In this document: positions 3,105 to 47,368 of the stretch, in pieces | Numbering within the stretch: the stretch's first letter is position 1 | Layout: each line of letters opens with the position of its first letter | Assembly: GCA_903933915.1 (NCBI GenBank) | Contig: CAIZLW010000244.1 | Location: 1-64,000, forward strand | Direction: 5' to 3' | DNA from: an uncultured beta proteobacterium | Lineage (GTDB): Bacteria > Pseudomonadota > Gammaproteobacteria > Burkholderiales > SG8-41 | Length of the DNA stretch: 64,000 nt | Notes under the pieces: model-generated | The model's input: the letters and a program-made list of their open reading frames with translations, nothing else | What the model was told of the DNA's origin: nothing | Databases searched by the model: none | Position numbers and translations under genes: made by a program

Positions 3105-6100
3105 ATGAAGACTAACGCCGCTCACAACCATCAGCGCTGGCATTTCTGGATCGATCGCGGCGGCACGTTTACCGACATCGTCGCCCGCACTCCCGAAGGC
3201 GCCATCGTCACACACAAACTGCTGTCGGAAGATCCGTCCCGCTATCGCGATGCGGCGCTGGCCGGCATCCGCGATCTGCTCGGCATCGACCGCGATGCCG
3301 CCATCCCATCGGCGGACATTGCCGAAGTGCGCATGGGCACGACTGTCGCCACCAACGCCTTACTGGAACGCAAAGGTGAACCGGTTGCGCTGTTCATCAC
3401 CCGCGGCTTCGGCGATGCCCTGCGCATCGCCTGGCAGAACCGTCCACGCATCTTCGATCGGCATATCGTCCTGCCGGAACTGCTTTACGGCGCCGTATAT
3501 GAAGTCGATGAGCGTATCGGCGCTCAGGGTAAAGTCATCACAAAACCGGGCATCCCGGCGCTGCAGCGCGACTTCGCCGCCGCCAAGGCCGCCGGCTACA
3601 ACGCCATCGCCATCGCATTCATGCATGGTTACCGCCATCCCCAACACGAACAGCTTGCCGCGCAACTGGCACGCGACTGCGGCTTTACCCAGATCTCGGT
3701 GTCGCACCAAGTCAGTCCGCTGATGAAACTGGTCGCGCGCGGCGACACCACGGTTGTCGATGCCTACCTGACACCGGTACTGCGCCGCTATGTCGAGCAG
3801 ATCCGCAGCGAATTGCCGGACACCCGGCTGCTGTTCATGCAATCGAACGGCGGACTCACCGATGCCGGCTGTTTTCAGGGCAAGGACAGCATTCTCTCCG
3901 GCCCTGCCGGCGGCATCGTCGGTGCGGTACGTACGGCGGCTGCAGCAGGCTTCGATCGCATCATCGGATTCGACATGGGCGGCACTTCGACCGATGTTGC
4001 GCACTTTGCAGGCACGGACCTCGCCGCGCTGGAGCGCACTTTCGATGGCATGGTGGCCGGCGTGCGCGTGCGCGCACCGATGCTCGCCATCCATACCGTC
4101 GCCGCCGGCGGCGGATCGATCCTTCAGTTTGACGGCACCCGTCTGCGCGCAGGCCCGGAATCCGCCGGCGCCAACCCGGGTCCCGCCTGCTACGGTAAAG
4201 ACGGTCCGCTCACCATCACCGACTGCAATGTGCTGCTCGGACGCATCCAGCCCGCGTTTTTCCCCAGCGTCTTCGGCGCGGATGGCCGGCAATCGCTGGA
4301 CGTTGCCGCGACCCGGAGCAAATTCAGCCACTTCCTTAAAAATATTAATAAAAACAATTACTTACAAAACGTCGAGGCGGTGGCCGAAGGCGGTCTGCGC
4401 ATTGCCGTCGAGAACATGGCCAATGCCATCAAGAAAATATCGGTGCAGCGCGGCCATGATGTCACGGCCTACACACTGGTCTGCTTCGGCGGCGCCGGTG
4501 GACAACACGCCTGCCGCGTCGCCGATGCCCTCGGCATGCCCCGCATATTCATCCACCCGCTCGCCGGCGTACTGTCCGCCTGCGGCATGGGGCTCGCCGA
4601 TATCACCGCAATGCGCGAACAGGCGGTCGAATCAATACTCTCCGACAGCACGCTGCAAGCATTACAACCGGTCATCGCACAGCTCGGTGCCGCAGCACAC
4701 GATCAGGTAGTGGCACAGGGCGTACCCGCCACCGCAATCCGGCTGCAGATCAGGCTGCTGATCAAATATGCGGGCACCGATACCGCCATTGGCGTGATGC
4801 ACGACACATTGACCGCGATGCAGTATCAATTCGAACAGATTTATCTGCAGCGCTACAGCTTCCTGATGCAGGACCGTCCGCTGGTCGTCGACTCCGTCAC
4901 CGTGGAAGCCATAGGCCAGGGCGATCATCACGCCGCGTCCATTGCCATGACATCACCTGAAAAACAGCCCACCGCGGCGCGGGTGCCGATGTATTGCGAC
5001 GGTGCCTGGCGGGAAGTCGATGCGCACGCCCGTGCCGCACTCAATCCGGGGAACCGGGTGACAGGACCCGCGATCATTACCGATGCCCATGCCACCACGG
5101 TCATTGAACCCGGCTGGCAGGCCGAGGTTGCGCCCGAAGGTCATCTGCTGCTGAGCCGCGCGGCACCCCGAAAACAGGAACATACCGTTGCGCAGGCCGA
5201 CCCCGTCATGCTCGAAGTATTCAACAATCTCTACATGTCGATCGCCGAGCAGATGGGTGCGACACTGGCCAACACCGCGCATTCGGTCAACATCAAGGAA
5301 CGGCTGGATTTCTCCTGTGCGCTTTTCGATGCCGACGGCAACCTGATTGCCAATGCCCCGCATATGCCCGTGCACCTGGGATCGATGGGCGCCAGCGTCC
5401 GCGCCATCATCGATGCCAATCAGGGCCGCATGAATCCGGGTGATGCCTGGATGCTCAACGACCCCTATGCCGGCGGCACCCATCTGCCGGACATCACCGT
5501 GATCACACCGGTGTTCGACGCCGAAAGCCGCCGGGTCCTGTTCTATACCGGTTCACGCGGACACCACGCCGATGTCGGCGGCATCACGCCGGGCTCGATG
5601 CCGCCCGACAGCCGCCACATCGACGATGAAGGCGTGCTGATTTCGAATTTCCTGCTGGTACAGGGCGGGAAATTCCGCGAAAGCGAAACCCGCGGGCTGT
5701 TTGCCTCGACACCATACCCGGCGCGCAATATCGATCAGAACATTGCCGATTTGCGCGCAATGATCGCAGCCAACCGCAAAGGCGCCGTCGAACTGGAACG
5801 GATGATCGGCCAGTTCGGACTTGACGTCGTTCAGGCCTATATGCGGCATGTGCAGGACAATGCCGAGGTTGCCGTGCAACGCGTCATCGACCGGTTGCAT
5901 GACGGCAGCTTCAGTTATGAGATGGATCACGGCGCGGTCATTCGTGTCGCCATCCGCGTCGACAATGCCGCGCGCAGCGCCGTCATCGACTTCACCGGCA
6001 CCTCTCCGCAGGGCCATGACAATTTCAACGCCCCGCTGGCCGTAACCATGGCTGCAGTGCTCTACGTATTCCGTTCGCTGGTGGATGACGACATTCCGCT

Positions 6101-6728
6101 CAACGCCGGCTGCCTGCGGCCGCTGACTGTGATCGTGCCGCCGGGCACGCTGCTCAACCCGCAGCACCCGGCCGCCGTCGTCGCCGGCAATGTCGAGACT
6201 TCGCAATGCGTCACCGATGCGCTCTACGGCGCGCTCGGCGTGATGGGCGCCTCTCAGGGCACGATGAATAATTTCACCTTCGGCAACGCGCGCCACCAGT
6301 ATTACGAAACCATAGCCGGCGGCTCCGGCGCCGGTGACGGCTTTGACGGCACCGCCTGCGTGCAGACCCACATGACCAATTCGCGCCTCACCGATCCGGA
6401 AGTACTGGAATGGCGCTACCCGGTGCAGCTCGACAGCTTTGCCATCCGCCGTAACAGCGGCGGCGCGGGGCGCTGGCACGGCGGTGATGGCGCGATCCGC
6501 AAACTGCGCTTTCTGGAACCGATGACTGCTGCCATTCTCTCCGGGCATCGCCGCGTACCGCCCTATGGCATGGCCGGCGGCGAGCCTGGCGTCACCGGAC
6601 GCAATGCCGTGCAGCGCAACGATGGCAAAGTCACGGAACTGGACGCCTGCGCCAGTGTGGAAATGAATTCCGGCGATGTCTTCATCATCGAAACGCCGGG
6701 CGGCGGCGGATACGGCCCGGTACAATAA
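3105..6728 (+). CDS. Fused hydantoinase A/B (5-oxoprolinase-like)
   Basis: [87 protein letters not shown]; HyuB half [41 protein letters not shown]. Confidence 0.93.
4335..4370 (+). repeat. AT-rich dispersed repeat, copy A (inside the 5-oxoprolinase ORF)
   Basis: CTTAAAAATATTAATAAAAACAATTACTTACAAAAC; 17/18 match to copy B over AATAAAAACAAATACTTA. Confidence 0.7.
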
Positions 6729-6802
6729 TGAATCATAAAAACACCGCGCATCACCGATCAGCCCAGCTTGAAACCGTATGCCGTCCAATCCGCAGCGGTC
6801 GC

Positions 6803-6835
6803 TAAAAATAATTAATCAATAAAAACAAATACTTA
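6803..6835 (+). repeat. AT-rich dispersed repeat, copy B (5' of CMD-family gene)
   Basis: CTAAAAATAATTAATCAATAAAAACAAATACTTA; ends 9 nt before the ATG at 6845. Confidence 0.75.
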
Positions 6836-6844
6836 GGAATTATC

Positions 6845-7372
6845 ATGGCCCGTGTCCCCTTGTTAGGCGAGGAACGCAATGACCTCGCGCCCTTTATCGC
6901 ACGCGTCAAGGCAGAGCGCGGCAAATTGATCAATCTGTACCGGGTGCTGATGAACAGCCCGACGATCGCCGCAGGCTGGCTCGACTTCAACAGCATCATC
7001 CGTTACAAAACATCGCTCGATGCGGCACTGCGCGAGATGATCATCCTGCGCGTATCGCTGCTCAACGGCGCCGAATATCAGGCTCGCATCCATGGCGCCT
7101 CCCATGCACTGCATGCCGGACTCAGCGTCGAACAGATTGCAGCCCTCGATCACTGGCAGGACAGCGAACTGTTCACACCGGCGCAGCGCGCCGCATTGGC
7201 CTGGACGGACGCGATGACCCGCCAGATCGACGTCCCCGATGCGCTGCATGAGGAACTGAAAAAACATTTCCACGACCAGGCCATCGTCGAAATCACCGTA
7301 CTCGCCGGCGCCTACAATATGCACACCCGGGTTGCGCGCGCACTGCGCATCGAACCCGAACAAAAATCATGA
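6845..7372 (+). CDS. Carboxymuconolactone decarboxylase (CMD)/AhpD-like family protein
   Basis: RVLMNSPTIAAGWLDFNSIIRYKTSLDAALREMIILRVSLLNGAEYQARIHGASH; CMD-fold signature. Confidence 0.8.
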   Translation: MARVPLLGEERNDLAPFIARVKAERGKLINLYRVLMNSPTIAAGWLDFNSIIRYKTSLDAALREMIILRVSLLNGAEYQARIHGASHALHAGLSVEQIAALDHWQDSELFTPAQRAALAWTDAMTRQIDVPDALHEELKKHFHDQAIVEITVLAGAYNMHTRVARALRIEPEQKS

Positions 7373-8457
7373 CCCGACAACTGCCCGTACTGGTCGTCGA
7401 AAACGACCCCTTTCTCCGCCTTCTTGGCGTCATCCTCGATCCCGAACACACCGATCCGCAACGCATCGCCGCGTTCAGCGATTTTTTTGCTCACGACCTT
7501 CCGGACTTCAACGGCTGGCTGTCCCAGCTGCGCGGTCGCCTGAAAAAACTCTACCCGGCAACCGTACACCTGGTCGATGACGAAGCCGCGCTGCACAAAC
7601 ACCTGCCGGCGGCCGAAATCGCCGTCATCGAATCGCTGCGTATCGGCGCCGATGAACTGGCGATTGCGCCGCGGCTGCGGGCCGTGCAGAAATTTGGCGC
7701 CATCGCCAGCAGCGTCGATGAACCCGCCTGCGCTGCCCGACAGGTCGCCGTACTGAAGCTGCGCCGTCGCGCCAATATCGCCTGCGCCGAACATGCCATC
7801 GCCATGATGCTCGGCCTTTCACGCCAACTGCATCGCGTCATCAACCGCATCAGCACCGAGTCACTGCAGGCCGCAGGCTACTCGCCGCGCACCTATGACC
7901 GGCGCCACACCGCCAATTCGAACTGGGCGCGGGTGCCCGGCATCACCCTGCTCCACGGCACCACGCTGGGCATCGTCGGCATGGGCGAAATCGGGCGCGA
8001 AGTCGCGCTGCGCGCGACGGCCTTCGGCATGAACATTCTCTATCACCAGCGGACTCCTATGCCGCGGGCACTCGAAACCGCGCACCACGCGCATTACGCC
8101 GATCTCGACACCCTGCTCGAAACCTGCGACTGGGTGGTGATCTGCCTGCCGGGAAACGACAACACCCATCACCTGTTCAACGCCCGCCGCCTCGCGCAGA
8201 TGAAACCGGGGGCGCGACTGATCAACATCTCCCGCGCTGAAATTGTCGAGCGTAACGCCGTCATCGGCGTGCTGCGCTCGGGCCGCCTCGGCGGTTTCGC
8301 GCTGGACCCGCTATACGAAGCGCCGGGTCGAGATGATGATGAACTGCTGCAGTTCGAAAACGTGCTGCTGACCCCGCACATCGCCGCTCAGCCGCGATTC
8401 AATGCGCTGAACGACATTGCCGACCTGCTGACCGGACTTGAGGAACAAATAAAATGA
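7369..8457 (+). CDS. D-isomer-specific 2-hydroxyacid dehydrogenase family protein
   Basis: GTTLGIVGMGEIGREVALRATAFGMNILYHQRT, LINISRAEIVERNAVIGVLRSGRLGGFALDPLYEAP, LLTPHIA. Confidence 0.9.
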   Translation: MTRQLPVLVVENDPFLRLLGVILDPEHTDPQRIAAFSDFFAHDLPDFNGWLSQLRGRLKKLYPATVHLVDDEAALHKHLPAAEIAVIESLRIGADELAIAPRLRAVQKFGAIASSVDEPACAARQVAVLKLRRRANIACAEHAIAMMLGLSRQLHRVINRISTESLQAAGYSPRTYDRRHTANSNWARVPGITLLHGTTLGIVGMGEIGREVALRATAFGMNILYHQRTPMPRALETAHHAHYADLDTLLETCDWVVICLPGNDNTHHLFNARRLAQMKPGARLINISRAEIVERNAVIGVLRSGRLGGFALDPLYEAPGRDDDELLQFENVLLTPHIAAQPRFNALNDIADLLTGLEEQIK

Positions 8458-9476
8458 TTGCCACCAGAATCTCGCTCACGCTGTGCGCCACCTTGATATC
8501 CGGCAGTTTTGCCGCCCTGATAGCCGGCAGTTTTGCCGCCCTGATAGCCGGCAGTTTTGCCGCACAGGCGGCGGACGCCTGGCCGTCGCGCCCGATCCGT
8601 ATGATTGCCCCCTTCCCCGCCGGCAGTTCGGTGGATGCGGCGGCACGGGTCATCACGCCGCGCGTTGGTGAAGCCCTCGGGCAATCGATTGTCATCGACA
8701 ACCGCGCCGGTGCCAGCGGCGCCATCGGCGCCGAACTCGGCGCGCGCGCCGCACCCGACGGTTACACCATCTCCGGCGGCACCACCAGCACGCACGCGCT
8801 GTCAAAAGCCTTGAACCCGCACCTCAGCTATGACCCGGAAAAGGATTTTGCGCCGATCACCATGTTCGGCCACCTGCCCTACATCCTCGCCGTGCACCCG
8901 GGCGTGCCCGCCTCAAACCTGCAGGAACTGATCGCCATTGCCAAAGCAAAACCGGGACAGATCCGTTACACCACCGTCGGCAACGCCAGCATGGCGCGCC
9001 TGGGCGGGGAATTGCTGTCCAACCTGACCGGCGCCCAGCTCACGCCGATTTCCTACAAGAGTTCTGCGCAATCGGTTGTCGACACCCTCGCCGGACGCAT
9101 CGAACTGCAGTTCGGCACCATGGCACCGGTGCTGCCGCATGTGCGCGCGGGCAAGCTGCGCGCGCTGGCGGTCACCAGCAGTACGCGCGCGCCGGCACTG
9201 CCGGAAGTGCCCACCGTACAGGAATCCGGGATCAAGAATTTCGAGGTGACATTATGGCTGGCCGTTTTTGCACCGGCAAAAACACCGCGCCCGATCGTTG
9301 AGCGGCTGAACCGCGAATTTGTGGCCGCAATCGCCGTGCCGCAGATCCGCGAGGCACTGCTCACTCAGGGGCTGCAGCCGGAAACCACCAGTCCGGCAGC
9401 GTTTTCCCGTTTCCTGTCCGCAGAAATCACCAAATGGCGCGATGTGGCGCGCAAGGCGAATCTGAAACCCGAGTAA
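8454..9476 (+). CDS. Tripartite tricarboxylate transporter substrate-binding protein (Bug/TctC family)
   Basis: Signal peptide, then WPSRPIRMIAPFPAGSSVDAAARVI...IDNRAGASGAIGAE...PDGYTI; ATGA overlap with the upstream gene. Confidence 0.93.
   Translation: MIATRISLTLCATLISGSFAALIAGSFAALIAGSFAAQAADAWPSRPIRMIAPFPAGSSVDAAARVITPRVGEALGQSIVIDNRAGASGAIGAELGARAAPDGYTISGGTTSTHALSKALNPHLSYDPEKDFAPITMFGHLPYILAVHPGVPASNLQELIAIAKAKPGQIRYTTVGNASMARLGGELLSNLTGAQLTPISYKSSAQSVVDTLAGRIELQFGTMAPVLPHVRAGKLRALAVTSSTRAPALPEVPTVQESGIKNFEVTLWLAVFAPAKTPRPIVERLNREFVAAIAVPQIREALLTQGLQPETTSPAAFSRFLSAEITKWRDVARKANLKPE
8500..8563 (+). repeat. 24-bp tandem repeat (about 2.7 copies) in signal-peptide coding region
   Basis: CCGGCAGTTTTGCCGCCCTGATAG at 8500-8523 and 8524-8547, partial third copy 8548-8563; encodes GSFAALIAGSFAALIAGSFAA. 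Confidence 0.95.
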
Positions 9477-9507
9477 ATACAGAAACAACCCGAACTGCAG
9501 CCGACCA

Positions 9508-10476
9508 TCAGATTATAGGAAGCAACTTTGCCGCGAGTCCCGTGCCGCTGAGATAAGCCCCTTCAATACGGCCGTCGGCACACCAGTCGCCGCAGATACC
9601 GATGCGCCGGCTGACATCCCAGAAGGAGCCTGCGCTCAAACCGTCTGACAACGCAAACCGCCAGCAGTGCGCCCGGGATTCGACCACTTCGGCATGAATG
9701 CCGGCCGCAGCATGGAAAGCTTCTACCAGCATTGGTCCCACAGTTTCTGCATTGGCTTCCAGATGCACCCTGGACCATTCTGCACTCGCGTGCAGCACCC
9801 AGCGCTCGCCTGCTGCACGGCCTGGGCGGGAGGCATCGCGCATCACCCATCCGACGGCAGCGCCCGAAACAAACGCCGCATCGAATTCGAGTGCCAACGG
9901 CTGGTCATAACAGACCATCACCGCCCAACACGGCGCGTGCCCGCCCTGACGGATCTGAGTCGCAAGCTCAGGCACCGCAGTGCACAGCGGCAAGGCCTGC
10001 GCTGCCGGGATTGCCAGCACAACCGCAGCGAATCCCGACTCGCCGCCTTCCTCCCAGGACAGGCGCCAGCCGTCTTCGCCGGGCGTAACGGCCGTGATCC
10101 GGCACTCAAAATCGACATCCATATTCGCAGACAACGCGCGGCAGACTGACGTCATCGCCGGTGTTGCAACGTAACGCTGCTCGGTGTGCGACAGCGGCCG
10201 GGTTGTACCGGCGTGCAAATGCACAATGCGTCCGGCATAAGGCGCAATAACCCCATTGGCCAGCCACTGATCGACCACCGCACGAAAAGCGGGATCACGC
10301 ACCGTGAAATACTGGGCGCCATGGTCAAAGCTACCGTGCCCGGTGCGGCGGGTGGCCATGCGTCCTCCGGCGCCGCGACTTTTTTCAAATACGTGGACTT
10401 CATGTCCGGCGTTGTGCAAGGACTGCGCGCAGGCCAGTCCTGCGATGCCGGCACCGACCACGGCTACACGCGCCAT
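9508..10476 (-). CDS. NAD(P)/FAD-dependent oxidoreductase (amine oxidase/renalase-like)
   Basis: MARVAVVGAGIAGLACAQSLHNAGHEVHVFEKSRGAGGRMATRRTGHGSFDHGAQYFTVRDPAF. Confidence 0.9.
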   Translation of the reverse strand: MARVAVVGAGIAGLACAQSLHNAGHEVHVFEKSRGAGGRMATRRTGHGSFDHGAQYFTVRDPAFRAVVDQWLANGVIAPYAGRIVHLHAGTTRPLSHTEQRYVATPAMTSVCRALSANMDVDFECRITAVTPGEDGWRLSWEEGGESGFAAVVLAIPAAQALPLCTAVPELATQIRQGGHAPCWAVMVCYDQPLALEFDAAFVSGAAVGWVMRDASRPGRAAGERWVLHASAEWSRVHLEANAETVGPMLVEAFHAAAGIHAEVVESRAHCWRFALSDGLSAGSFWDVSRRIGICGDWCADGRIEGAYLSGTGLAAKLLPII

Positions 10477-10500
10477 AAATCCGCTTTCCACTGAATCATT

Positions 10501-14577: not shown

Positions 14578-14598
14578 GTCAAACCGCCTGAGCCGTTA

Positions 14599-14630
14599 CA
14601 AGTATCTGATTTTATTAATTTTTTAAGATA
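14599..14630 (-). repeat. AT-rich dispersed repeat, copy G (carries the PrpF-family stop codon)
   Basis: Minus strand ATCTTAAAAAATTAATAAAATCAGATACTTG; 15/18 to AATAAAAACAAATACTTA. Confidence 0.65.
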
Positions 14631-15813
14631 ACTTGCGGCTGCCGGCCGCACTCAACCCCGGCACCCCCGACGCGCGCACCAGCACTTGGCCCTCAAACAT
14701 CCGGCGCTGGGTGCGGTAGAACGCGCCCTGATCGGCGTGCCAGTCGCTGTCTTTCTGCCTGACCGTCGCCGCCACGGTGAGGATGCCCGAAGGCATGCCG
14801 ATGCGGATCGGCGCTTCGGCATCCGTCCCCTTGCGCAGCACTTCGCTGACCACAGAGCCTTCGATCCGTGAAGCCACGGCCATGCACAACGAGACCGTCA
14901 GCGGCAGTGCGCGGTGCGGCTGGCCGTTGGAAATGACCCGGCCGGTGAGATCGATCTCATCGGCCTTGATGGTTTCACCCGAAAGCAGCTTGGCATCCTG
15001 CGGCGCCGAAACAAAACCGATAAACGGCACGGATTTTCGTTTGGCCGCCTCTTCGACGTTCGGCGCGATACCCATCGCCACGGATGCAGCGATACGGATG
15101 GCCGACAGCTTCTGCATAGCAACCGTGTTCGCTTCCAGCGGTTCCGGCAGCTCGATACCGCTCAAACCGATATCTGCGGCTTTGACCCATACCGTGGCAT
15201 TCGCCGCATCGACCATCGACACCCGGATTTTGCCGATACCCGGCACATCCAGCGTGTCGACGACATTGCCGGTTGGCAACAGTTTGCCGGTGGTAGCGCC
15301 GCCGGGATCACGGAACTCGAGTTTCACCGGTGAACCGGTGCCCGACACACCGGGAATCGCGAGATCGCCATCGACAGCGGCCAGACCGTCATCGACACTG
15401 AACAGCGCATGGATGATTTTTTTGGTATTGGTGTTGTGGATGCGCACCAGCGCCTCGCGCCCCGACACCTTGACCATGCCTTCATCAAGCGCAAACGGGC
15501 CCATCGCCGAAGACATGTTGCCGCAGTTCGCGCCGTAATCAACCTTGGCCTCCTTCACCTGCACCTGAGCAAAGGTATAGTCGATGTCGGCATCCGGCCG
15601 GGTGGAGGGTCCGACTACACAGACCTTGGACAGCGACGATACGCCACCGCCCATGCCGTCGAGTTGCCGGCCATTGGGGTCGGGACTGCCGATCGCCGCC
15701 AGGAAAATCTCATCCCACAGCGCGCGATCCTGCGGCAGGTCCTTCTGGTTGAAAACGACGGCGTTGCTGGTGCCGCCGCGCATGAATACGGCCGGTAATT
15801 TAAGTTGTTTCAT
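14623..15813 (-). CDS. PrpF family protein (methylaconitate/oxalomesaconate isomerase-like)
   Basis: MKQLKLPAVFMRGGTSNAVVFNQKDLPQDRALWDEIFLAAIGSPDPNGRQLDGMGGGVSSLSKVCVV...VDYGANCGNMSSAMGPFALDEG. Confidence 0.92.
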   Translation of the reverse strand: MKQLKLPAVFMRGGTSNAVVFNQKDLPQDRALWDEIFLAAIGSPDPNGRQLDGMGGGVSSLSKVCVVGPSTRPDADIDYTFAQVQVKEAKVDYGANCGNMSSAMGPFALDEGMVKVSGREALVRIHNTNTKKIIHALFSVDDGLAAVDGDLAIPGVSGTGSPVKLEFRDPGGATTGKLLPTGNVVDTLDVPGIGKIRVSMVDAANATVWVKAADIGLSGIELPEPLEANTVAMQKLSAIRIAASVAMGIAPNVEEAAKRKSVPFIGFVSAPQDAKLLSGETIKADEIDLTGRVISNGQPHRALPLTVSLCMAVASRIEGSVVSEVLRKGTDAEAPIRIGMPSGILTVAATVRQKDSDWHADQGAFYRTQRRMFEGQVLVRASGVPGLSAAGSRKLS

Positions 15814-24876: not shown

Positions 24877-24917
24877 AATAATCAATAAATTATTGTTTTT
24901 ATTGATTATTAATTAAG
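24877..24917 (-). repeat. AT-rich dispersed repeat, copy C (between lyase and dehydrogenase genes; includes lyase stop and a 13-bp inverted repeat)
   Basis: Minus strand CTTAATTAATAATCAATAAAAACAATAATTTATTGATTATT; shares the 16-mer TAATCAATAAAAACAA with copy B; arms AATAATCAATAAA/TTTATTGATTATT. Confidence 0.7.
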
Positions 24918-26273
24918 CCAGCCGGCGGCACGCTGCTGCTGCAGCACTTCATCGACGATTTCCGGCGCGCGGCCGACATAGGTGGTCGGGTCTAACACCG
25001 CCTTCACTTCGGCGAGGGTCATCGCTTGTTTGACCTGCGGGTTCTGCAACAAGGCGTCCTCGAACGAAAGGCCGTTTTCGATGCCATGCATCGAAGCCTC
25101 ATAAACCAGTTCATGCGCGGTCTGCTTGCCGACTTTCTCGGACAGCGCAAACATCACCCGTTCCGACAACAGGAAACCGCCCAGGCTGTCGAGGTTGCGG
25201 CGCATGCTGGCGACATCGACATGCAGATCCGACAACACGCCTTTCATGATCGCCAGCATGCCGCCGGTGATCAGGCAGGATTCCGGCAACGCCTTCCACT
25301 CGCCGCGCCAGGATGAACCGTCGCGCTCGTGTTCGACCAGCATGCACTCGAGCATGTAGGCGACGTTGTAGCGCACCGCGCGGCTCGCACCAACCACGGC
25401 TTCACAGCTCGACGGATTACGTTTGTGCGGCATCGTCGACGAACCGACCTTGCCGGCACTGAATGGCTCATACAGCTCGCCGATCTCGGTGTGTTCCAGC
25501 GTGATGATCTCGTTGGCGATCTTGGCCAGCGTCGCGCCGATCAAACCGAGCACGTTTACATACTCGGCGAAACGGTCTCGCGCGGGCTGCCAGTTGATGT
25601 CGGCCACACCCAGACCCAGCCGTTTCATCACGCCCTGCTCCAGCGCCTTGGCTTTCGGCCCAAAGGAAGCCTGCGTGCCGACCGCACCCACCATCCCGCC
25701 GACAAACATCCGCGGCTCCAGTTGGCGCATGCGCTCATAGTGCCGCCCCATTTCCGACAACCAGATCGCGGCCTTGTGACCGAAAGTAATCGGCAGCGCC
25801 TGCACGCCATGCGAGCGGCCCACCATCGGCGTATCGCGATGGGTCTCGCACAGCGTGACCAGCGCATTACCGATGGCCTTGATGTCGCGCAGGTAAAGCG
25901 CGTGCGCCTCTTTGATCTGCAGCATCACCGCAGTGTCAAGCACGTCCTGCGTCGTCGGGCCAAAGTGAATGTATTCGCCATGGTCGCCCTGACACAGCTT
26001 CTGCACCGCCTTCACCGCCGGCACCAGCGGATGCTTGATGCGGCGGATTTCAGTCGCCACCGCATTGACGTCGATTTTCGAAATCTTGCAATTGGCGGCG
26101 ATGTCCGCGGCAGCCTCTTTCGGAATAATCCCCAGCTCGCCCTGTTCCAGCGCGAATGCCGCCTCGAAGTCGTACCACTTCTGCAGACGATTGTGGTCGT
26201 TGAAAATATTGCGAAACTCCTCGGTGCTCCACAGGTGCTGGATCAGGATGTCGTCAAATACGCCGGAGGCCAT
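24909..26273 (-). CDS. Adenylosuccinate lyase/fumarase superfamily lyase (PurB/PcaB-like)
   Basis: HLWSTEEFRNIFNDHNRLQKWYDFEAAFALEQGELGIIP, IHFGPTTQDVLDTAVMLQIKEA, GRSHGVQALPITFGHKAAIWLSE, GKVGSSTMPHKRNPSSCE (superfamily signature). Confidence 0.92.
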   Translation of the reverse strand: MASGVFDDILIQHLWSTEEFRNIFNDHNRLQKWYDFEAAFALEQGELGIIPKEAAADIAANCKISKIDVNAVATEIRRIKHPLVPAVKAVQKLCQGDHGEYIHFGPTTQDVLDTAVMLQIKEAHALYLRDIKAIGNALVTLCETHRDTPMVGRSHGVQALPITFGHKAAIWLSEMGRHYERMRQLEPRMFVGGMVGAVGTQASFGPKAKALEQGVMKRLGLGVADINWQPARDRFAEYVNVLGLIGATLAKIANEIITLEHTEIGELYEPFSAGKVGSSTMPHKRNPSSCEAVVGASRAVRYNVAYMLECMLVEHERDGSSWRGEWKALPESCLITGGMLAIMKGVLSDLHVDVASMRRNLDSLGGFLLSERVMFALSEKVGKQTAHELVYEASMHGIENGLSFEDALLQNPQVKQAMTLAEVKAVLDPTTYVGRAPEIVDEVLQQQRAAGWLN

Positions 26274-30471: not shown

Positions 30472-30981
30472 ATGCCGGTCATCCACAGTTTTGCGCCTGT
30501 TGCCGATGCAGCAGCACGCGTACTGATTCTCGGCAGCATGCCCGGCGTTGAATCGCTTCAAGCCGGGCAGTACTACGCGCATCCACGCAACGCCTTCTGG
30601 CGCATCATGGGCGAGCTCGTTGGCGCATCCACGGACCTGCCTTATGCAACACGTACCCGCACGCTGCGGCAGTCAGGCATCGCGCTATGGGATGTGCTCG
30701 CGGCCTGCGCAAGAGCAGGCAGTCTCGATGCCGCCATCGACCAACGCTCGATCATCGCCAATGATCTGCTGTCTTTCCTCGCACAGCATCGCGGCATCAC
30801 TCACGTGTTTTTCAACGGCGCTACCGCAGAGCGTTGTTTTCGCTTGCACGTGCAGCCGGCGCTGCAAGCCGATGCGCTGCAATTGCAGCGTCTGCCGTCG
30901 ACCAGTCCGGCGCATGCCGCCATGCGATATGCGGACAAAGTGCAGGCGTGGCGCCCCATCCTGCAAGCGCTCTCAAAATAA
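30472..30981 (+). CDS. DNA-deoxyinosine glycosylase/uracil-DNA glycosylase-superfamily protein
   Basis: [52 protein letters not shown]...[27 protein letters not shown]-like motifs. Confidence 0.88.
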
Positions 30982-31002
30982 TACAATAAAAACAAGTAGA
31001 TA
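30974..31002 (+). repeat. AT-rich dispersed repeat, copy D (bridges glycosylase stop and EamA start)
   Basis: CAAAATAATACAATAAAAACAAGTAGATA; 15/18 to AATAAAAACAAATACTTA; carries the upstream TAA and abuts the downstream ATG. Confidence 0.65.
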
Positions 31003-31874
31003 TGATCGATCTCGCCCTGCTCTTCGCGATCCTCAGCGCGCTCTGCTTCGGCACCGGCATGATCACCTCACGCATCGGCCTGCATCACCTCGACGCGCGA
31101 TCAGGCGCGGCCATCAGCATTCCGACGGCGACACTGCTGTTTGTGATGACCACACCGTTCACCGTCGACTTGTCTGCCTTTAATCTCGCGGCCACATTCA
31201 TCTTCGCCGCGGTCGGCCTGTTCTACCCGGCCATGGTCACGCTGCTGACCTTCCGTTCCAACGAAGAACTGGGCCCGACCATCACCAGCGCGATTTCCGG
31301 AACCGCACCACTGTTCGCGATGCTTGCAGCCGCACTGCTGCTGGGTGAACGCGTGCCGCCGCAGGCCGCCATCGCAGCCATTGCCATCGCCGCCGGCGTG
31401 GCGCTGCTGTCGTGGCGACCCGGGGCTGCGAGCGGCGCCATCTCCGGCAGCAAGCTCGTGTGGCCGGTAGCCGGCGCCATTGTTCGCGGCTTTGCCCAGG
31501 CCGGCGCCAAAGCCGGACTGCTGCTGTGGGGCAACCCGTTCGCCGCCAGCGTCATCGGTTACCTGGTGTCTTCAACAGCCGTGGTCGGCGCGGAACAACT
31601 GCGGCATGGCGGACGCAGAACGCTGAACCGCCGTGGAATGCAGTGGTTCGCCATCACCGGGTTCATCAACGGCGGCGCAATGGTGTTGATGTATGCCGCG
31701 CTGGCGCGGGCGCCGGTCTCGGCGGTAGCGCCGATCATTGCCGCCTATCCATTGATCACAGTGCTCGGCAGCGCGCTGTTCCTGCGCAGCGAACCGCTCA
31801 ATCGTCGCATCGTTGCCGGCGCCATCATCACGGTCGCGGCCGTCGCCTGGCTCGCCACTTACCGCACGAACTGA
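31002..31874 (+). CDS. EamA/DMT family transporter
   Basis: FAILSALCFGTGMITSRIGLHHLDARSGAAISIPTATLLFV...; about 10 TM segments, two repeats. Confidence 0.88.
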   Translation: MIDLALLFAILSALCFGTGMITSRIGLHHLDARSGAAISIPTATLLFVMTTPFTVDLSAFNLAATFIFAAVGLFYPAMVTLLTFRSNEELGPTITSAISGTAPLFAMLAAALLLGERVPPQAAIAAIAIAAGVALLSWRPGAASGAISGSKLVWPVAGAIVRGFAQAGAKAGLLLWGNPFAASVIGYLVSSTAVVGAEQLRHGGRRTLNRRGMQWFAITGFINGGAMVLMYAALARAPVSAVAPIIAAYPLITVLGSALFLRSEPLNRRIVAGAIITVAAVAWLATYRTN

Positions 31875-36243: not shown

Positions 36244-36590
36244 GACAGCCGGTCAATGTCGGCAAAAACCCGCAGCACGCCCGAAGGGAACTCGCGCTGA
36301 TAGATGCACTCATAAATCTGCGCGACCTCAAACGACACCGCAGAAGGATCCGTGGTGTCGATCTGATTCGTCACATCATACTCGGCGCGACGACAGTCCA
36401 TGACTTCAGGCCCCTGTTGCATCGGTCATGACTATGTTTTTGTTGTATCAGGTATAGTAAGAACAATTTTCGGGCACGCGCACCGCTGACCGCAAGCATG
36501 CACCAGTCGCGGCAGACACCGGTGGTAACGGGGTTGGTCCGCTCCGCGCCATCCCCAAAAAACTGTTCAATAAACCACGGTGTTAATGCC

Positions 36591-39839: not shown

Positions 39840-39855
39840 CCAGACAGCAAGCATG

Positions 39856-39887: not shown

Positions 39888-39905
39888 GTTGAAACGAACG
39901 GCCGC

Positions 39906-40781: not shown

Positions 40782-40867
40782 AGTTTTATCGAATCCCCGT
40801 AAGGTTGAACACGGACGTTAGATGATGGCGAATGGCGCAAGTTCAAGTCCTGGCGCGCCACCCCAGG

Positions 40868-40904
40868 TAAATTATAAATATTTGATTATTAATGGTATTT
40901 TTTA
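40868..40904 (-). repeat. AT-rich dispersed repeat, copy H (between dtd and htpX)
   Basis: Plus strand TAAATTATAAATATTTGATTATTAATGGTATTTTTTA; shares TAAATTAT and TTGATTATTAAT with copy C. Confidence 0.65.
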
Positions 40905-40951
40905 GCGGCTGCCGCCCACTCCAGGACAAGGGGCAGCGCCGCGATATTACC

Positions 40952-41401
40952 TCAAGCGCCGGCGCCGACCTGTAACCAGAACGTCACCGGGCCGTCGTTG
41001 GTCAGCGTGACTTTCATGTCGGCGCCAAAGCGGCCTTGTGCCACTGGCGCATGCAGACCCTGCGCCCGCAGCCACAGATGATCAAACAGCATCCGCCCCT
41101 GCTCCGGCGGCGCCGCGCTGGAAAAACTGGGTCGCAAACCTTTACGGGTATCGGCCGCCAGTGTGAACTGGGGTACCAGCAGCACGCCGCCGCCGACATC
41201 GCGCACCGACAGATTCATTTTCCCGGCGGCGTCACTGAACACGCGGTAACTGAGCAGCCGCTCCAGCAGACGGTCAGCTTCATTCGTCGTATCACCCGAC
41301 TCGACCCCCACCAGCACCAGCAGTCCGTGCTCAATCGCGCCCACGGTCTCGCCATCGACCACAACACGCGCTGAACTCACCCGCTGCAATAATGCAATCA
41401 T
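40952..41401 (-). CDS. dtd: D-aminoacyl-tRNA deacylase
   Basis: [38 protein letters not shown]...[31 protein letters not shown]...[21 protein letters not shown]. Confidence 0.97.
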
Positions 41402-41422
41402 CGCACTGTCCTCATCATCCAG

Positions 41423-42217
41423 TCACCGCCGCGCATCGCGTCCCGGCCGGAAATAACCGGTATCGTCGTAATACCCGGCCTTGGCGTTGTCGACCCACCA
41501 GCCGGGCACGCCCAATACCGGTACCGGCGCCAGATGTCGCGTCGTCTGCAAGGCCTGCGGATCGGCCAGCAGATTCGCCAGCCGTCCATCCACCGAACGC
41601 AGCAGTGCCGGCATCGGCAACACCAGCAGTTCGACATCAATGTCCAGCAACAACGCATGGCCGGTCAGTCCTCGATACGGCGCCAGCACTTTTTCGCACA
41701 GGGCGTGGCCAAAGGGCAAAAAGCGCATGGCGTCGGTCACCGCGGCCCGCTGCTCCCAGAACAACGGCTTCCAGCGAAAATCACGGATCAGCTGCAGCAG
41801 CGCAGGCTGCGCCGACAACACCACCAGGCCGCTCTCGTCGAACAGCGTCAGCGCATCGCGAACAGCGCCGCGGCCAGCGCTGGCGTCGGCTGCCCAGGCC
41901 GCATGATGCCGGGCATTCAGCGCAGCCTTGGTCTGCGGAAAAGCCAGCCACGCCAGAACGTTGAACAGGTCATGCCAGTTGCGCTCGCGGCATTCCAGTT
42001 CGCCGCAATCGTAAACGCGGATTTCATAAGGCAGCTTGCCGCCCGCGGCCACCAGTTGCAGCGGCCGGCCCGAAGCCACGCGCACGCCGGCATCGTCGAA
42101 CAGGCGCTGCAGCACGCCAAGATCCGGCCAGTCGTTTCCGTCCATCCGTCCCGCCGATTCGCGCAGCGGCAGCAGCAAGGGGTGCGCTTGCGCAAAGGCG
42201 GCGTTCCATTTGTCCAT
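41423..42217 (-). CDS. DUF3025 domain-containing protein
   Basis: LPYEIRVYDCGELECRERNWHDLFNVLAWLAFPQTKAALNARH; DUF3025 signature. Confidence 0.85.
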   Translation of the reverse strand: MDKWNAAFAQAHPLLLPLRESAGRMDGNDWPDLGVLQRLFDDAGVRVASGRPLQLVAAGGKLPYEIRVYDCGELECRERNWHDLFNVLAWLAFPQTKAALNARHHAAWAADASAGRGAVRDALTLFDESGLVVLSAQPALLQLIRDFRWKPLFWEQRAAVTDAMRFLPFGHALCEKVLAPYRGLTGHALLLDIDVELLVLPMPALLRSVDGRLANLLADPQALQTTRHLAPVPVLGVPGWWVDNAKAGYYDDTGYFRPGRDARR

Positions 42218-42447
42218 GACCGGAGTGTACGACGCGGCGCCGCACGATCCGTTTAACTTTCAAGTAAAATAAAATATTGGCAAAACAGTTTCCCACAACC
42301 CGTTTTGCGTTCCCGGCACCAGGTCATCAGGATAGTGCGGGCCGCACGGATTTCTTGGATACCCAGTCGCGGGGTTTGACGTCTGCACTGGCAATCACCG
42401 ATCATGTCGCCACCCTGCTGTCCTGAACAAAGTTGCGAACAACAACA

Positions 42448-43251
42448 ATGACCGCAAATACCACATATCGCACTACAGCCCAAGGCGCCGCAGAAGTTGC
42501 CGCGAAACCGGGCAAGCTGAAACCCGGATTAAAAGGCCTGCTGGCCGCAGTGGGTGAAAAAGCGTCCGCAGAAAGTCTTCGCGTCAAATTCCCGCGCGCC
42601 GGCGACCTCGAGGCCGCCCTCGCCCAACTCGCCCGCGACGGCTATGTCGAACCGCTGCCTGCAACACCACCGAAAGCGGCGCCACAACCCGCCGTAGCCG
42701 CAGCACCCGCAGGGTCGCTGGAAAACCTGTTCAACGAAAAACCGAAGGAACCGACGATCCATCAACTGAAGATGGCCGAGGGCACGATCTCCGGTGCACG
42801 CCGGTTGAAGGCAGGTTACCAGATCAGCATCGTCAACCGTCCGGGACGGCCGCTGCTGCCGCGGGGTGGCGCCGGCCAGAAGCATGTCGTGCTGGTCATC
42901 GACGGCCATGAAGCGGAAGCACTGGAAACCGCGCGCGGCATGATGCTCGGCGGGTTTGAAGTGCGCGGGGCCGGCACCAAAACCGAAATCGTCGCCGCGC
43001 TGGGCAAACAACCGCTGCCTGACCTGATCATCATGGATGTCGACCTGCCCGATGCCGTCGGCCTCGACCTGTTGGGCAAGTTCCGCGAACACGACGAACT
43101 GAAAGACACGCCGATCATCGTGGTGACCGCACGCGCCGAACGCGACGACATCGTCGCCGCACTGGCCTACGGCGCCACCGGCTATCTGAACAAACCGATC
43201 AAGGCCGAAGCCCTGCTCCGTCACGTCAAGGACGCGCTGGGCATTCCCTGA
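42448..43251 (+). CDS. Response regulator with N-terminal accessory domain
   Basis: Receiver domain HVVLVIDGHEAEALETARGMMLGGFEVRGAGT...LPDLIIMDVDLPDAVGLDLLGKFR...TPIIVVTARAERDDIVAALAYGATGYLNKPIKAEALL; N-terminal TYRTTAQGAAEVAAKPGKLKPGLKGLLAAVGEKASAE.... Confidence 0.9.
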   Translation: MTANTTYRTTAQGAAEVAAKPGKLKPGLKGLLAAVGEKASAESLRVKFPRAGDLEAALAQLARDGYVEPLPATPPKAAPQPAVAAAPAGSLENLFNEKPKEPTIHQLKMAEGTISGARRLKAGYQISIVNRPGRPLLPRGGAGQKHVVLVIDGHEAEALETARGMMLGGFEVRGAGTKTEIVAALGKQPLPDLIIMDVDLPDAVGLDLLGKFREHDELKDTPIIVVTARAERDDIVAALAYGATGYLNKPIKAEALLRHVKDALGIP

Positions 43252-43266
43252 CCGGTAGCACCACGC

Positions 43267-44073
43267 TCAGCAGCCGAGCAGCTGCTTGATTTGCGGCAGC
43301 ATCAGCTCCGTCGCCAGCCGACCTTCTTCGATAGATTCCGCCGCTCGGTGGTAATCCAGTGAGCCCATATCCCCCAGACGCGGCATGATCAGCGCGTCCG
43401 CCGGTTCACCGGCGAGACGGCTGCGGGTAATCCGCACCTGCATGATGTTGATGCTTTCCGTCAGCACCTCGATCATATTCGGCTCACGGCTTTTTGCGGT
43501 GCTGCGCACATGTCGACCGGCGAGGCCGGAACCCAGATCAACAGCGATGACAAAATCCGCACCCATCGCCCGGCACAACGACACCGGCACCGGATTGACC
43601 AACGCACCGTCAACCAGCAGATGCCCGTCGCGTTCGCAAGGCGTAAATAAGCCCGGCAGCGCGATGGAAGCACGCACCACATCGACGACGCGACCTTCGC
43701 GCAGCCAGATTTCGCGACCGCTTCGCAGATCGGTTGCGACTGCGCCAAAAGGCAAAGCCAGCTCTTCCACTTCGGTTTCTAGCAGGTTATCTTGCAGATA
43801 ACTGATCAGCTTCGCACCCTTGAGAAATCCGCCGTTGAAGCTGATGTCAAAAAACCCCAGTACCTTGCGCCAGGTCAGGCTCAACACCCATTCCTCCAGC
43901 GCATCCAGGCCGCCGTTGGCGTAAACCGCACCGACCAGCGCCCCGATCGATGCACCGCAGACGATTTGTGGCCGGATACCCGCCTGTTCCAGCGCGCGCA
44001 GTACGCCGATATGCGCCCAGCCGCGAGCTGAACCCGCGCCAAGGACAATGCCGATTTTCAGATCTGTTTTCAT
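43267..44073 (-). CDS. Patatin-like phospholipase family protein (RssA-like)
   Basis: IGIVLGAGSARGWAHIGVLRALEQAGIRPQIVCGASIGALVGAVYANG...LVDGALVNPVPVSLCRAMGADFVIAVDLGSG. Confidence 0.95.
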   Translation of the reverse strand: MKTDLKIGIVLGAGSARGWAHIGVLRALEQAGIRPQIVCGASIGALVGAVYANGGLDALEEWVLSLTWRKVLGFFDISFNGGFLKGAKLISYLQDNLLETEVEELALPFGAVATDLRSGREIWLREGRVVDVVRASIALPGLFTPCERDGHLLVDGALVNPVPVSLCRAMGADFVIAVDLGSGLAGRHVRSTAKSREPNMIEVLTESINIMQVRITRSRLAGEPADALIMPRLGDMGSLDYHRAAESIEEGRLATELMLPQIKQLLGC

Positions 44074-44118
44074 TTTCGCAATAAAATCATAATGTTATTG
44101 CAAAGCTACGACTGCGGA

Positions 44119-45099
44119 TCAGCCCATCCAGCGCAACGGCGGTTCATCCAGCGCCGCCGCCTGCTCGCGCAGCGACAGGATGTGATCCTGCCAGTAATGC
44201 TGGGTATTGAAATACGGAAAGCTTGCCGGGAAGGCCGGATCATCCCAGCGCCGCGCCAGCCAGCCGGCGTAATGCACGATGCGCAGCGTGCGCAGCGCTT
44301 CAATCAGCATCAGCTCGGCCGCATCGAATTCGCGGAATTCAGAGTAGCCTTCCAGCACCGATATCAACTGCGTCTGCTGCGACTTGCGGTCGCCCGACAG
44401 GCACATCCACAAATCCTGCACCGCCGGCCCCATGCGCGCATCGTCAAGGTCGACAAAATGCGGGCCCTCGTCGGTCCACAACACATTACCGGCATGGCAG
44501 TCGCCGTGCAGCCGGATCTGGCGCAACGCGCCGGCATCGGCCCAGCGCCGCTCGATGCGTTCAACCACATCCTCGGCGACGCTGGCGTAGGTGTCGTACA
44601 GATCATCCGGCACAAAATCGCTGTCGAGTATGAACTGCACCGGCTCGTAGGCGAAGGATTCGATGTCCAGCGTCGGGCGATGTTCAAAGGGCTTGGTCGC
44701 CCCCACCGCATGAATGCGCGCAATGAAGCGCCCCATCCACTGCAAGGTCTCCGGATCATCCAGCTCCGGCGTGCGCCCGCCGCGGCGCGGCGTCAGCGCA
44801 AACTGGAAGCCACCGTGTTCATGCAGCGTACGGCCGTTGAACACCAGCGGTGCCACCACCGGCAACTCGCGGGCGGCGAGTTCAGCGGCAAAATCATGTT
44901 CTTCCTGGATCGCCGCACTGCTCCAGCGTTGCGGCCGGTAGAACTTGGCAACCACCGACACGCCGTCCTCCAGCCACACCTGGTAGACGCGATTTTCATA
45001 ACTGTTGAGCCCCTGCAAGCGGCCATCGCAGCGCAGGCCGCAGCAGGATTCGATGGCGTCAAGTATGAGTTCGGGATTCAGTGCGGCATAGGGTTTCAT
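44119..45099 (-). CDS. srkA: Stress response serine/threonine protein kinase SrkA/YihE (RdoA)
   Basis: GLNSYENRVYQVWLEDGVSVVAKFYRPQRWSSAAIQEEHDFAAEL...RLHGDCHAGNVLWTDEGPHFVDLDDARMGPAVQDLWM. Confidence 0.95.
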   Translation of the reverse strand: MKPYAALNPELILDAIESCCGLRCDGRLQGLNSYENRVYQVWLEDGVSVVAKFYRPQRWSSAAIQEEHDFAAELAARELPVVAPLVFNGRTLHEHGGFQFALTPRRGGRTPELDDPETLQWMGRFIARIHAVGATKPFEHRPTLDIESFAYEPVQFILDSDFVPDDLYDTYASVAEDVVERIERRWADAGALRQIRLHGDCHAGNVLWTDEGPHFVDLDDARMGPAVQDLWMCLSGDRKSQQTQLISVLEGYSEFREFDAAELMLIEALRTLRIVHYAGWLARRWDDPAFPASFPYFNTQHYWQDHILSLREQAAALDEPPLRWMG

Positions 45100-45155
45100 G
45101 GCGCGCACTGTAGCAGTTTCGGAATTGCAGGCTGCGAAAGACCCGCTTTTCGTAG

Positions 45156-45187
45156 GGCGGATTAGGCGCGAAGCGCCGTTATCCGCC
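45156..45187. repeat. Short imperfect palindrome, possible REP-like repeat
   Basis: GGCGGATTAGGCGCGAAGCGCCGTTATCCGCC: outer arms GGCGGAT/ATCCGCC, inner arms GGCGC/GCGCC, loop GAA. Confidence 0.6.
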
Positions 45188-45260
45188 AGATAATTACGCA
45201 GCGAAAAGTCACATGCTGCGGAGCAAGCCCTCTTGGGGGGCGGCTTGGACTAAAGAAAAT

Positions 45261-46346
45261 TCAATGCCGCGCAGGCTCCCGCCCCAAGCTCTCCAGCATC
45301 CTTCCCGCCACAAACACCGACCCGCCCGCCAAGCGCTCCGGCAACACTTGCTGAAGCACCGTCACTGCAGGCACGCGACATTCGGCGAGCACGGCCTGAA
45401 ACAGTTGCGAGACTTCAGCCGCGTCATCCTGGGGCTGCAGCGGCCAGGCAAATCCTTCGAACAGTGAATCGTCAAACGGCGTGCTCAGGCTCAGCCGCAG
45501 TTCTCCGGCACCGTTGTCGAGCTTGTGCGATGACAGCACGGCTTCGGGATCGCCGACAGCCATACGGAATTTGCGCAGCGTGTTGCCGAGGAACAGGCTC
45601 AGCGCGGCTTCGAGCTGGGCACGGCGGCCGGCGTGGACTGCCGTCAGCAAAGGCTGCGGCGGACGCGGCATCGGCAGGATTTCGAGACCGGACTGGGCAA
45701 GCTGACGCGCGAGTTCCTTGGTCATCGCCATGCCCCAGGTGCCGATATTGGACGCCGACTCAAGGAAGGACGGCAGATGCTGCGGCGTGATGCCGGCGCC
45801 GGTGATGAACCGCAGATGCACCTGTTCGCGGCTGCCTGCAACCTGGATCGGTTCCGGCTGCAGCGCATCCAGCGGCGCGCGCTGCGCGGGATCACCGGCA
45901 GCGCGCCACAGCGCCGAGGGTGACAGGGCATCCAGCGCTTCGGCGCTGACCAGCGCATTGCCAAGGCCGAAGTTGCGGGTGACGCCGACTGCGCCGTGCT
46001 GTTCGAGTAATCCGCGCAGCACATGCACTTCGGGCAACGCACCCTGCACGGTGCAGGGTTTGCGCGCACCGGCAACGATCACCAGCGGAATGGCAAAAAA
46101 ACGCAGGCCGATGCCTTCGCCCTGTGCATCGAGTGCGGCCGCGAGCAGACGCGCGACGCGCTGCGCGCGGGCCGGCGGTTGCACGGCCAGTGCGGTGCGG
46201 ATGCCGGCGTCGTCTCCCGCTTCCAGTGCATGCTGCAGCGCCGTGCGTAGCGCGGCATCATCAGCCTGTTGGGCCGCCTCAAGCAGCGGGTGTTTTCCAG
46301 CTAAGAGCGTCTCTCGCGGGTCCGGCAGTGTTTCAGTGTTGCTCAT
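45261..46346 (-). CDS. Conserved hypothetical protein
   Basis: Long ORF with coding-like composition: MSNTETLPDPRETLLAGKHPLLEAAQQADDAALRTALQHALEAGDDAG... Confidence 0.65.
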   Translation of the reverse strand: MSNTETLPDPRETLLAGKHPLLEAAQQADDAALRTALQHALEAGDDAGIRTALAVQPPARAQRVARLLAAALDAQGEGIGLRFFAIPLVIVAGARKPCTVQGALPEVHVLRGLLEQHGAVGVTRNFGLGNALVSAEALDALSPSALWRAAGDPAQRAPLDALQPEPIQVAGSREQVHLRFITGAGITPQHLPSFLESASNIGTWGMAMTKELARQLAQSGLEILPMPRPPQPLLTAVHAGRRAQLEAALSLFLGNTLRKFRMAVGDPEAVLSSHKLDNGAGELRLSLSTPFDDSLFEGFAWPLQPQDDAAEVSQLFQAVLAECRVPAVTVLQQVLPERLAGGSVFVAGRMLESLGREPARH

Positions 46347-46357
46347 TCGACTTTCGT

Positions 46358-47368
46358 TCAATCTACCTTTGCTCCCGAGGCTTTGACGGCCTTGCCCCAT
46401 TTATCCAGTTCGCTGCGGATGTAGGCGGTGAATTGCGCCGGTGTGTCGCCGACGAATTCAGCGCCTTCGGCAATCATGCGATCACGCAGATCCGGCGCCT
46501 GCAAAGCCTTGGTCGACTCCGCGTGCAGCTTGGTAATGATCGCCTGCGGCGTGCCGGTCGGCACGGCCATGCCAAACCAGGAGCCGGTTTCAAATCCCTT
46601 GAGGCCCTGTTCATCCAGCGTCGGAATATCTTTTGCGGCATCGACGCGTTTGAGGCTGGTGACACCCAACGCGCGCAAGCGGTTGGAACGGGCATGCGGC
46701 AGCGTCGACACCATCGCGCCAAAATAGACTTCGATGTGCCCAGCAATGATGTCGGCAATCGCCGGCGTCGCGCCCTTGTACGGCACATGAATCATTTTCA
46801 CGCCGGCCATAGTCTTGAAAATTTCTCCGGCGAGGTGATGCGGACTGCCGATGCCAGTGGAACCGTGACGCAGCGAATTCGGATTGGCCTTGGCGATGGC
46901 GATCAGTTCTTTGGCATTCTTCGCCGGCAGCGACGGATGCACGACAACAATGCCCGGAACCTTGGCGAAATTGGTGACATAGGCAAAATCCTTGAGCATG
47001 TCGTAACCGAGTTTCGGATACAGCGTCGGATTGATCGCATTGGCCACGGTCGGCATGAACAGCGTGTAGCCGTCGGCCGGCGCACGCGCGCCCAGTTCGG
47101 TACCGATGTTGGTGCCGGCGCCAGCCCGGTTGTCGACAATCACCTGCTGCCCCCAGGCTGCCGCCAGTTTCTGGCCGACGGCACGCGCCAGCATGTCGGC
47201 CGTGCCGCCGGGGGTATAACCGACGATGTAACGAATCGAGCGCGACGGGTAATTCGCCGCAGCGTCCTGCGCCAGAGCCCCATTCGGAACCGCTGCTACA
47301 GTGCCGGCCACCAGCATCACCGCAAAAGTATTATTTAAGTATTTGTTTTTAAATGATTTTTTATACAT
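46358..47368 (-). CDS. Bug/TctC family substrate-binding protein
   Basis: YPSRSIRYIVGYTPGGTADMLARAVGQKLAAAWGQQVIVDNRAGAGTNIGTELGARAPADGYTLFM. Confidence 0.92.
   Translation of the reverse strand: MYKKSFKNKYLNNTFAVMLVAGTVAAVPNGALAQDAAANYPSRSIRYIVGYTPGGTADMLARAVGQKLAAAWGQQVIVDNRAGAGTNIGTELGARAPADGYTLFMPTVANAINPTLYPKLGYDMLKDFAYVTNFAKVPGIVVVHPSLPAKNAKELIAIAKANPNSLRHGSTGIGSPHHLAGEIFKTMAGVKMIHVPYKGATPAIADIIAGHIEVYFGAMVSTLPHARSNRLRALGVTSLKRVDAAKDIPTLDEQGLKGFETGSWFGMAVPTGTPQAIITKLHAESTKALQAPDLRDRMIAEGAEFVGDTPAQFTAYIRSELDKWGKAVKASGAKVD
47336..47365 (-). repeat. AT-rich dispersed repeat, copy E (N-terminal codons of a Bug protein)
   Basis: Minus strand AAAAAATCATTTAAAAACAAATACTTA; identical 15-mer AAAAACAAATACTTA to copy B. 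Confidence 0.7.

Follow-up and report, generated by a model that had tools for sequence, protein, structure and literature searches.

A genome-wide family of 36-bp AT-rich sites in uncultured Burkholderiales with a layout resembling that of IHF sites

We analyzed a stretch of 64,000 nucleotides (hereafter, the window) from contig CAIZLW010000244.1 of an uncultured beta proteobacterium of the order Burkholderiales, for which an initial annotation had reported seven copies of a dispersed AT-rich repeat. This repeat belongs to a real family of 36-bp elements, which extends over the whole genome, is kept at the DNA level, and is bigger than first stated. The reading that we favor, with a probability of about 0.5, is that the family consists of IHF-type chromosome-anchoring sites. 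Each copy, about 36 bp long and asymmetric, would bind one DNA-bending protein of the IHF type, in all likelihood IHF (IhfA/IhfB); its A-tract on the left and its AAWCAANNNNTTA block on the right would allow the DNA to be wrapped and sharply bent by this protein. Found every 9-10 kb and mostly between genes, such sites could serve as fixed bend or anchor points that pin supercoil loops independently of the direction of transcription. Both the binding of IHF and the purpose in chromosome architecture are inferred from the layout and distribution of the copies.

The existence of the family was established by counting matches in the window and in its whole genome (3.80 Mb in 246 contigs). Allowing up to 3 mismatches, the pattern AATAAAAACAAWWAYTTA has 6 matches in the window, compared with 0.01 expected from dinucleotide shuffles, while WWWAATAAAAACAAWWAYTTA has 192 matches in the whole genome (101 forward and 91 reverse) and its reversed pattern has 19. 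At up to 2 mismatches, the consensus pattern is found 107 times in the genome and its control is not found at all. A position matrix was then built from close matches and scanned over 464 kb sampled from this genome, with a score of at least 25 bits defining a clean copy. The scan gave 47 copies, against a mean of 0.8 for 20 column-permuted matrices and 9 for the reversed matrix, which extrapolates to a total of about 390 copies per genome. The scores are nearly bimodal, since of the 59 copies that exceed 12 bits, 49 also exceed 20 bits; a matrix iterated at a low threshold was discarded because it drifted toward general AT-richness. Since the shuffled, reversed, and permuted controls all lie far below the observed counts, AT-rich low complexity was rejected as an explanation, and the proposal of a dispersed, alignable family stands. 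A known RNA family was rejected as well, given that Rfam finds just a tRNA in the window, which agrees with the first impression that this is not a named repeat. Among the literature matches listed for AATAAAAACAA there are only unrelated sequences and primers, and the paper search gave no match to the motif as a bacterial repeat. A plasmid search gave merely chance AT-rich matches, and in viral contigs, where the motif is nearly absent, the exact 21-mer occurs in a single stretch.

The element is composed of an A-tract, the block TnAATAAAAWCAAWWAcTTA, and an AT-rich tail. In the matrix alignment, the core WTnAATAAAAWCAAWWAcTTA is part of an AT-rich stretch that extends from about -8 to +28, and GC-rich flanks begin sharply on both sides; the length is therefore about 36-38 bp, longer than the 30 nt or so initially assigned to the repeat. 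Columns 7-13 (A A A W C A A) and 18-20 (T T A) are nearly invariant and columns 14-17 are weaker, together giving WAWCAANNNNTTA, while a second peak of information corresponds to the A-tract at -7 to -3. By inspection, neither internal nor terminal inverted repeats are present in the consensus, nor are palindromic repeat units; a few copies have a partial inverted copy alongside.

This anatomy is what suggests IHF. IHF sites are 35 bp long; their right part has WATCARNNNNTTR, and their left part has an A-tract, which increases the affinity (PMC8421141). Our motif agrees with them in order, spacing, and length, having its A-tract on the left, WATCAANNNNTTR on the right, and AT-rich information confined to the range given above, with background outside it. 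In the lambda H' site AAAAAAGCATTGCTTATCAATTTGTTGCA, whose sequence was confirmed in lambdoid phage records, the A-tract starts 14 nt before the W of the core; the same count applied to our motif leads to position -6, within its A-rich peak. The variant of the motif in G417, a carrier genome from a second family of the order, reads AATCAAATACTTA and fits the WATCARNNNNTTR consensus exactly. Judged by its anatomy, the motif would work like an IHF site, with a core that in most copies of the window's genome is one base off the consensus. In non-carrier Burkholderiales, single CAATAAAATCAATGACTTA-like copies often abut the 3' ends of tRNA or tmRNA genes; at the loci examined in unrelated Burkholderiales, a tRNA or tmRNA was detected there in 4 of 19 and some others have tRNA-like ends, which we take as supporting only, as these loci were selected by pattern.

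Two further observations were made at such single loci. A similar sequence, (C)AATAAAATCAAWNACTTA, directly abuts the 3' ends of tRNA-Arg, tmRNA, tRNA-Lys, and tRNA-Thr genes at four loci of non-carrier Burkholderiales (L263, L269, L272, and L277). Integrases typically use the 3' ends of tRNA and tmRNA genes as attachment sites, and IHF acts there; at these four loci, integrative elements probably attach at a site that includes an IHF site. In two unrelated genera (L262 and L274), a similar sequence lies between priA-like and hemE-like genes and is possibly a conserved single site.

The gene context of 52 copies was assigned from genes called by a simple method based on codon usage. Intergenic sequence makes up only about 10% of the total, yet 42 of the 52 copies fall there, and no interval has two of them. 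Within the intervals between tandem genes, 12 copies are in the sense of the genes and 14 are against it; convergent intervals have 8 copies, compared with 2.6 expected by length, and divergent intervals have 7, compared with 12.3. The copies of G417 likewise have no sense-strand preference. The co-orientation with genes that had been pointed out in the window is therefore a local coincidence: six of the seven copies do lie on the strand of their flanking genes, but copy G is found between convergent genes, and a newly found copy, I, is antisense. An element acting on mRNA, such as an A-rich leader, a translation enhancer, or a processing or terminator signal, could account for copies B, C, D, and E, which abut gene starts in the window, and for the excess in convergent intervals. 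Nevertheless, the absence of gene-strand bias makes RNA-level roles drop out, copies occur between convergent genes and antisense inside genes, and there is no Rfam match, so we regard an mRNA-level element as very unlikely and, as a general function, contradicted by strand neutrality.

Concerning their spacing, the copies are on average 9.3 kb apart and are more even than random intergenic placement would give. Only 1 gap is shorter than 2 kb, compared with 7.1 expected under that model (p = 0.003), and the coefficient of variation is 0.69, compared with 0.87 (p = 0.04). Together with the absence of gene-strand bias, the single copy per interval, and the conserved position and orientation described next, this evenness suggests a role at the level of the chromosome.

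Across the genus, the position and orientation of the sites are kept at 72-88% identity. Six copies, namely C, D, G, H, I, and J, the last of them decayed (Table 1), have counterparts in the same places and in the same orientation in five relatives, and H and J, which are decayed in the window's genome, are strong in others. The most informative case is copy A, which lies inside a coding sequence. Its motif is present in 16 of 16 orthologues of the genus, whose flanks are 75-88% identical, and its codons AAT AAA AAC are the same in all of them. Elsewhere in this hydantoinase gene, a single codon is used throughout in only 56 of 542 columns with an invariant residue, and in 0 of 20 Asn columns; the Leu codon TTA is used in 12 of 16 cases at the motif and in 32 of 1,500 elsewhere. 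These frozen codons indicate that the DNA itself is under selection or some other force that maintains it. The motif is found at this same place in carriers of two other genera (G293 and G025, from g6 and g9), whereas in six non-carriers, and also in G026, a carrier with few copies, the place is taken by a GC-rich segment almost equal in length. Such a segment implies that the motif arose there by substitution, not by insertion, and according to these alignments copy A is old. A small mobile element of the miniature inverted-repeat transposable element (MITE) type, or its remnants, would explain the many near-identical copies dispersed across several related species, and had been proposed for this repeat; nevertheless, with no empty site at copy A, stable positions and orientations across species, and a consensus without terminal inverted repeats, we consider it highly improbable, the substitution origin of copy A contradicting it.

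Table 1. Copies of the repeat in the window, with matrix scores and counterparts at the matching places in relatives.
Copy	Position	Strand	Score (bits)	Context	Counterparts in relatives
A	4331..4372	+	54.6	Within the HyuA domain of a fused hydantoinase/oxoprolinase open reading frame (3069-6728); in-frame ..NKNNYL..	
B	6802..6843	+	60.0	Between hydantoinase (end 6728) and carboxymuconolactone decarboxylase-family gene (start 6845)	G006, G011, G012, G013, G015, G016; absent in several others with a different upstream region
G	14591..14632	-	37.2	Between convergent genes, 3' end of PrpF-family gene (14623-15813, -)	5/5 relatives compared
C	24878..24919	-	53.4	Tandem interval, lyase/ADSL-like gene and 2-hydroxyacid dehydrogenase gene	4/5 relatives
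D	30969..31010	+	32.8	Spans stop of UDG-family gene and start of EamA-family gene	4/5 relatives, max 58 bits
H	40867..40908	-	17.1	Decayed; between tandem genes	25-55 bits in 4/5 relatives (G007, 55 bits)
J	44064..44105	+	13.8	Strongly decayed	G019, 38 bits; G001, 29; G005, 28; G013, 25
E	47328..47369	-	35.9	Codes lysine-rich signal-peptide start of TctC receptor gene	26-bit copy in G019
I	54797..54838	+	28.8	Intergenic, antisense to neighbors	3/3 alignable relatives, max 48 bits

All seven copies of the initial annotation were found where it had placed them, H among them as a decayed copy, and copy I is a clear copy that it had missed. From its three weaker candidates, the one at 44078-44101 corresponds to copy J, a decayed member with orthologues of 25-38 bits in four relatives; the candidate at 757-780 scores 7 and lacks support, and that at 36431-36455 is not among the matches listed.

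The distribution of the motif among genomes is patchy. All 21 sampled genomes of the window's genus carry it, their copy numbers at up to 2 mismatches ranging from 27 to 205. Four of the nine genera sampled in this Burkholderiales family are carriers, namely g1, g6, g7 (with few copies), and g9 (with up to 509), and the other five (g2, g3, g4, g5, and g8) have 0-5 copies. Outside the family, the only clear carrier among 399 genomes of the order is G417 (family f25), with 241 copies and 2 for the control; among its genus mates, two have zero matches, one has 1, and one has 14. The carriers differ in dialect: AAAAAC is used in g1, g6, and g9, and AAAATC is used in G417 and is frequent in G034. 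The dialect of G417, TTCAATAAAATCAAATACTTA, is surrounded by an extended frame like that of the other carriers, AAAATATTCAATAAAATCAAATACTTAtaWaa. We found no comparable motif, just unrelated repeats, when 180-200 kb of each of the non-carriers G021, G022, and G027 were sampled. A class-wide scan gave a weak excess of the pattern (163 of 369 genomes, compared with about 54 having control matches) that an AT-rich coding bias could explain and that was not used as evidence.

Several findings weigh against the IHF reading. In the window's genome, the core is W-A-A-C-A-A in 41 of 47 copies, so that the T of ATCAA, kept in 6 of 47, is replaced by A and the strict IHF consensus does not hold there; the spacer TnAATAA is conserved, though known IHF sites do not require it. 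Each site has 39-45 bits of information, a value somewhat inflated by copy selection, when 11-14 bits suffice to locate the sites, which is unusual for ordinary binding sites. Moreover, IhfA and IhfB, including their arm residues, are nearly identical in carriers and non-carriers, which means that IHF alone cannot explain which lineages have the array. A dedicated HU/IHF paralogue was rejected, as the carriers of this family have no extra one, just IhfA and IhfB, as in some non-carriers.

An alternative is that the motif is bound by a dedicated chromosome-associated protein present only in carriers and possibly spread horizontally, hence its occurrence in G417. Such a protein would account for the presence of the motif in four genera of one family plus one species elsewhere while sister genera with the same IHF lack it, and for the conservation of the spacer and core beyond the IHF consensus. 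It could also account for the strong replication-strand polarity of G417, in which the copies are polarized by contig (C6, C7, C9, C11, C13, and C15; permutation p below 1/20,000) and the A-rich strand is the one that, according to the GC skew, should be the lagging strand. This polarity was not seen in the relative G019 or in the window's genome, however, and it may be compositional, because the window's genus is without it; a replication-polarized site of the type of FtsK-orienting polar sequences (KOPS) or Chi was rejected for the same reason. As there is no candidate protein, a genome-wide comparison of gene content not having been possible, and the IHF-like layout would have to be a coincidence, we consider a dedicated protein improbable.

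A putative DNA-uptake-type sequence, which would mark self DNA for natural transformation through a pilus-associated receptor and accumulate by biased uptake and recombination, is a more serious competitor, although we still consider it unlikely. The motif resembles the DNA uptake sequences (DUS) of Neisseriaceae and the uptake signal sequences (USS) of Pasteurellaceae in being non-palindromic, dispersed, neutral to gene strand, and kept also in coding sequence, where it arose by substitution at a tolerant place. It is strongly over-represented in the genome (107 matches, compared with 0), evenly spaced, and nearly absent from viral contigs, its information per site is far above the need for localization, and its lineage dialects are one A/T change apart, as in Neisseriaceae (PMC3630211). 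The gene comEC is present in every carrier examined, but it is present in 24 of 25 genomes, in non-carriers as much as in carriers. At 1 copy in 10 kb, the motif is much sparser than the Neisseriaceae dialects, which have approximately 2,200-5,900 copies per genome (PMC3630211), and about ten times less numerous than the DUS of Neisseriaceae; in addition, unlike DUS, the motif is AT-rich, 36 bp long, and mostly intergenic, and its layout coincides with that of an IHF site.

Returning to IHF, the family can be compared with other systems related to this protein. Like IHF sites such as lambda H', it is asymmetric, about 35 bp long, and has an A-tract and a consensus-like block in the same order and spacing, and the dialect of G417 fits WATCARNNNNTTR exactly; unlike them, it has hundreds of near-identical copies and a conserved spacer, most copies in the window's genus have A where the consensus has T, and close relatives lack the family although their IHF is the same. 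In E. coli, the RIB or BIME-1 elements, which bind IHF and lie at the 3' ends of transcription units, are also dispersed intergenic repeats, and here some excess is seen between convergent genes, but our family consists of single sites without palindromic REP units, originates by substitution instead of transposition, and occurs also within coding sequence. The Correia elements of Neisseria, MITEs with an IHF site, are likewise dispersed and associated with IHF, whereas here there are no terminal inverted repeats and no sign of insertion.

We tentatively propose that the family may be a previously undescribed chromosome-marking system of Burkholderiales, in which 36-bp sites, evenly spaced, differing in dialect, and numbering in the hundreds, would either define chromosome domains through an IHF-type protein of evolved, extended specificity or mark self DNA for uptake, and whose array would have been gained and lost between sister genera and separately acquired in a second family. 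The sites of nucleoid proteins tend to be degenerate, which makes them difficult to recognize in a sequence; here, these sites, or something very like them, form a uniform and even array that can be counted, compared, and traced through evolution, with near-sister genera lacking the array as natural controls. If the IHF reading is true, whether fixed bend points define chromosome domains becomes directly testable; if the motif serves for DNA uptake, it would extend such sequences beyond Neisseriaceae and Pasteurellaceae to a clade of uncultured freshwater bacteria.

Some minor observations concern the genes and records in which the motif was found. Signal-peptide starts rich in lysine and asparagine host several coding copies (L022, L033, and copy E of the window), and an AT-rich motif is tolerable there as protein. 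The window has two genes for TctC, the receptor of tripartite tricarboxylate transporters, at 8454-9476 and 46358-47368, and over-represented genomic k-mers such as CCCTTGTACGGCA probably derive from many TctC paralogues. Most of the named records in which the exact motif occurs are metagenome-assembled genomes (MAGs) of uncultured Burkholderiales or Betaproteobacteria, and those closest by DNA to the window's genus include JAKFUS, JAURHM, JAIEPF, and a Hainich record. Several motif-bearing MAG records titled Bordetella parapertussis (L051, L052, L059, L065, and similar) look like misnamed uncultured bacteria. Regarding the non-carriers, G027, from a genus of the same family, has another dispersed repeat, CAAAATGGATTCCCG with GGGAATGACG, of REP-like appearance (L208-L217), and in G022 short tandem repeats such as CTTACCGCTTACC and CAATCCTCAATCC are over-represented (L198-L207).

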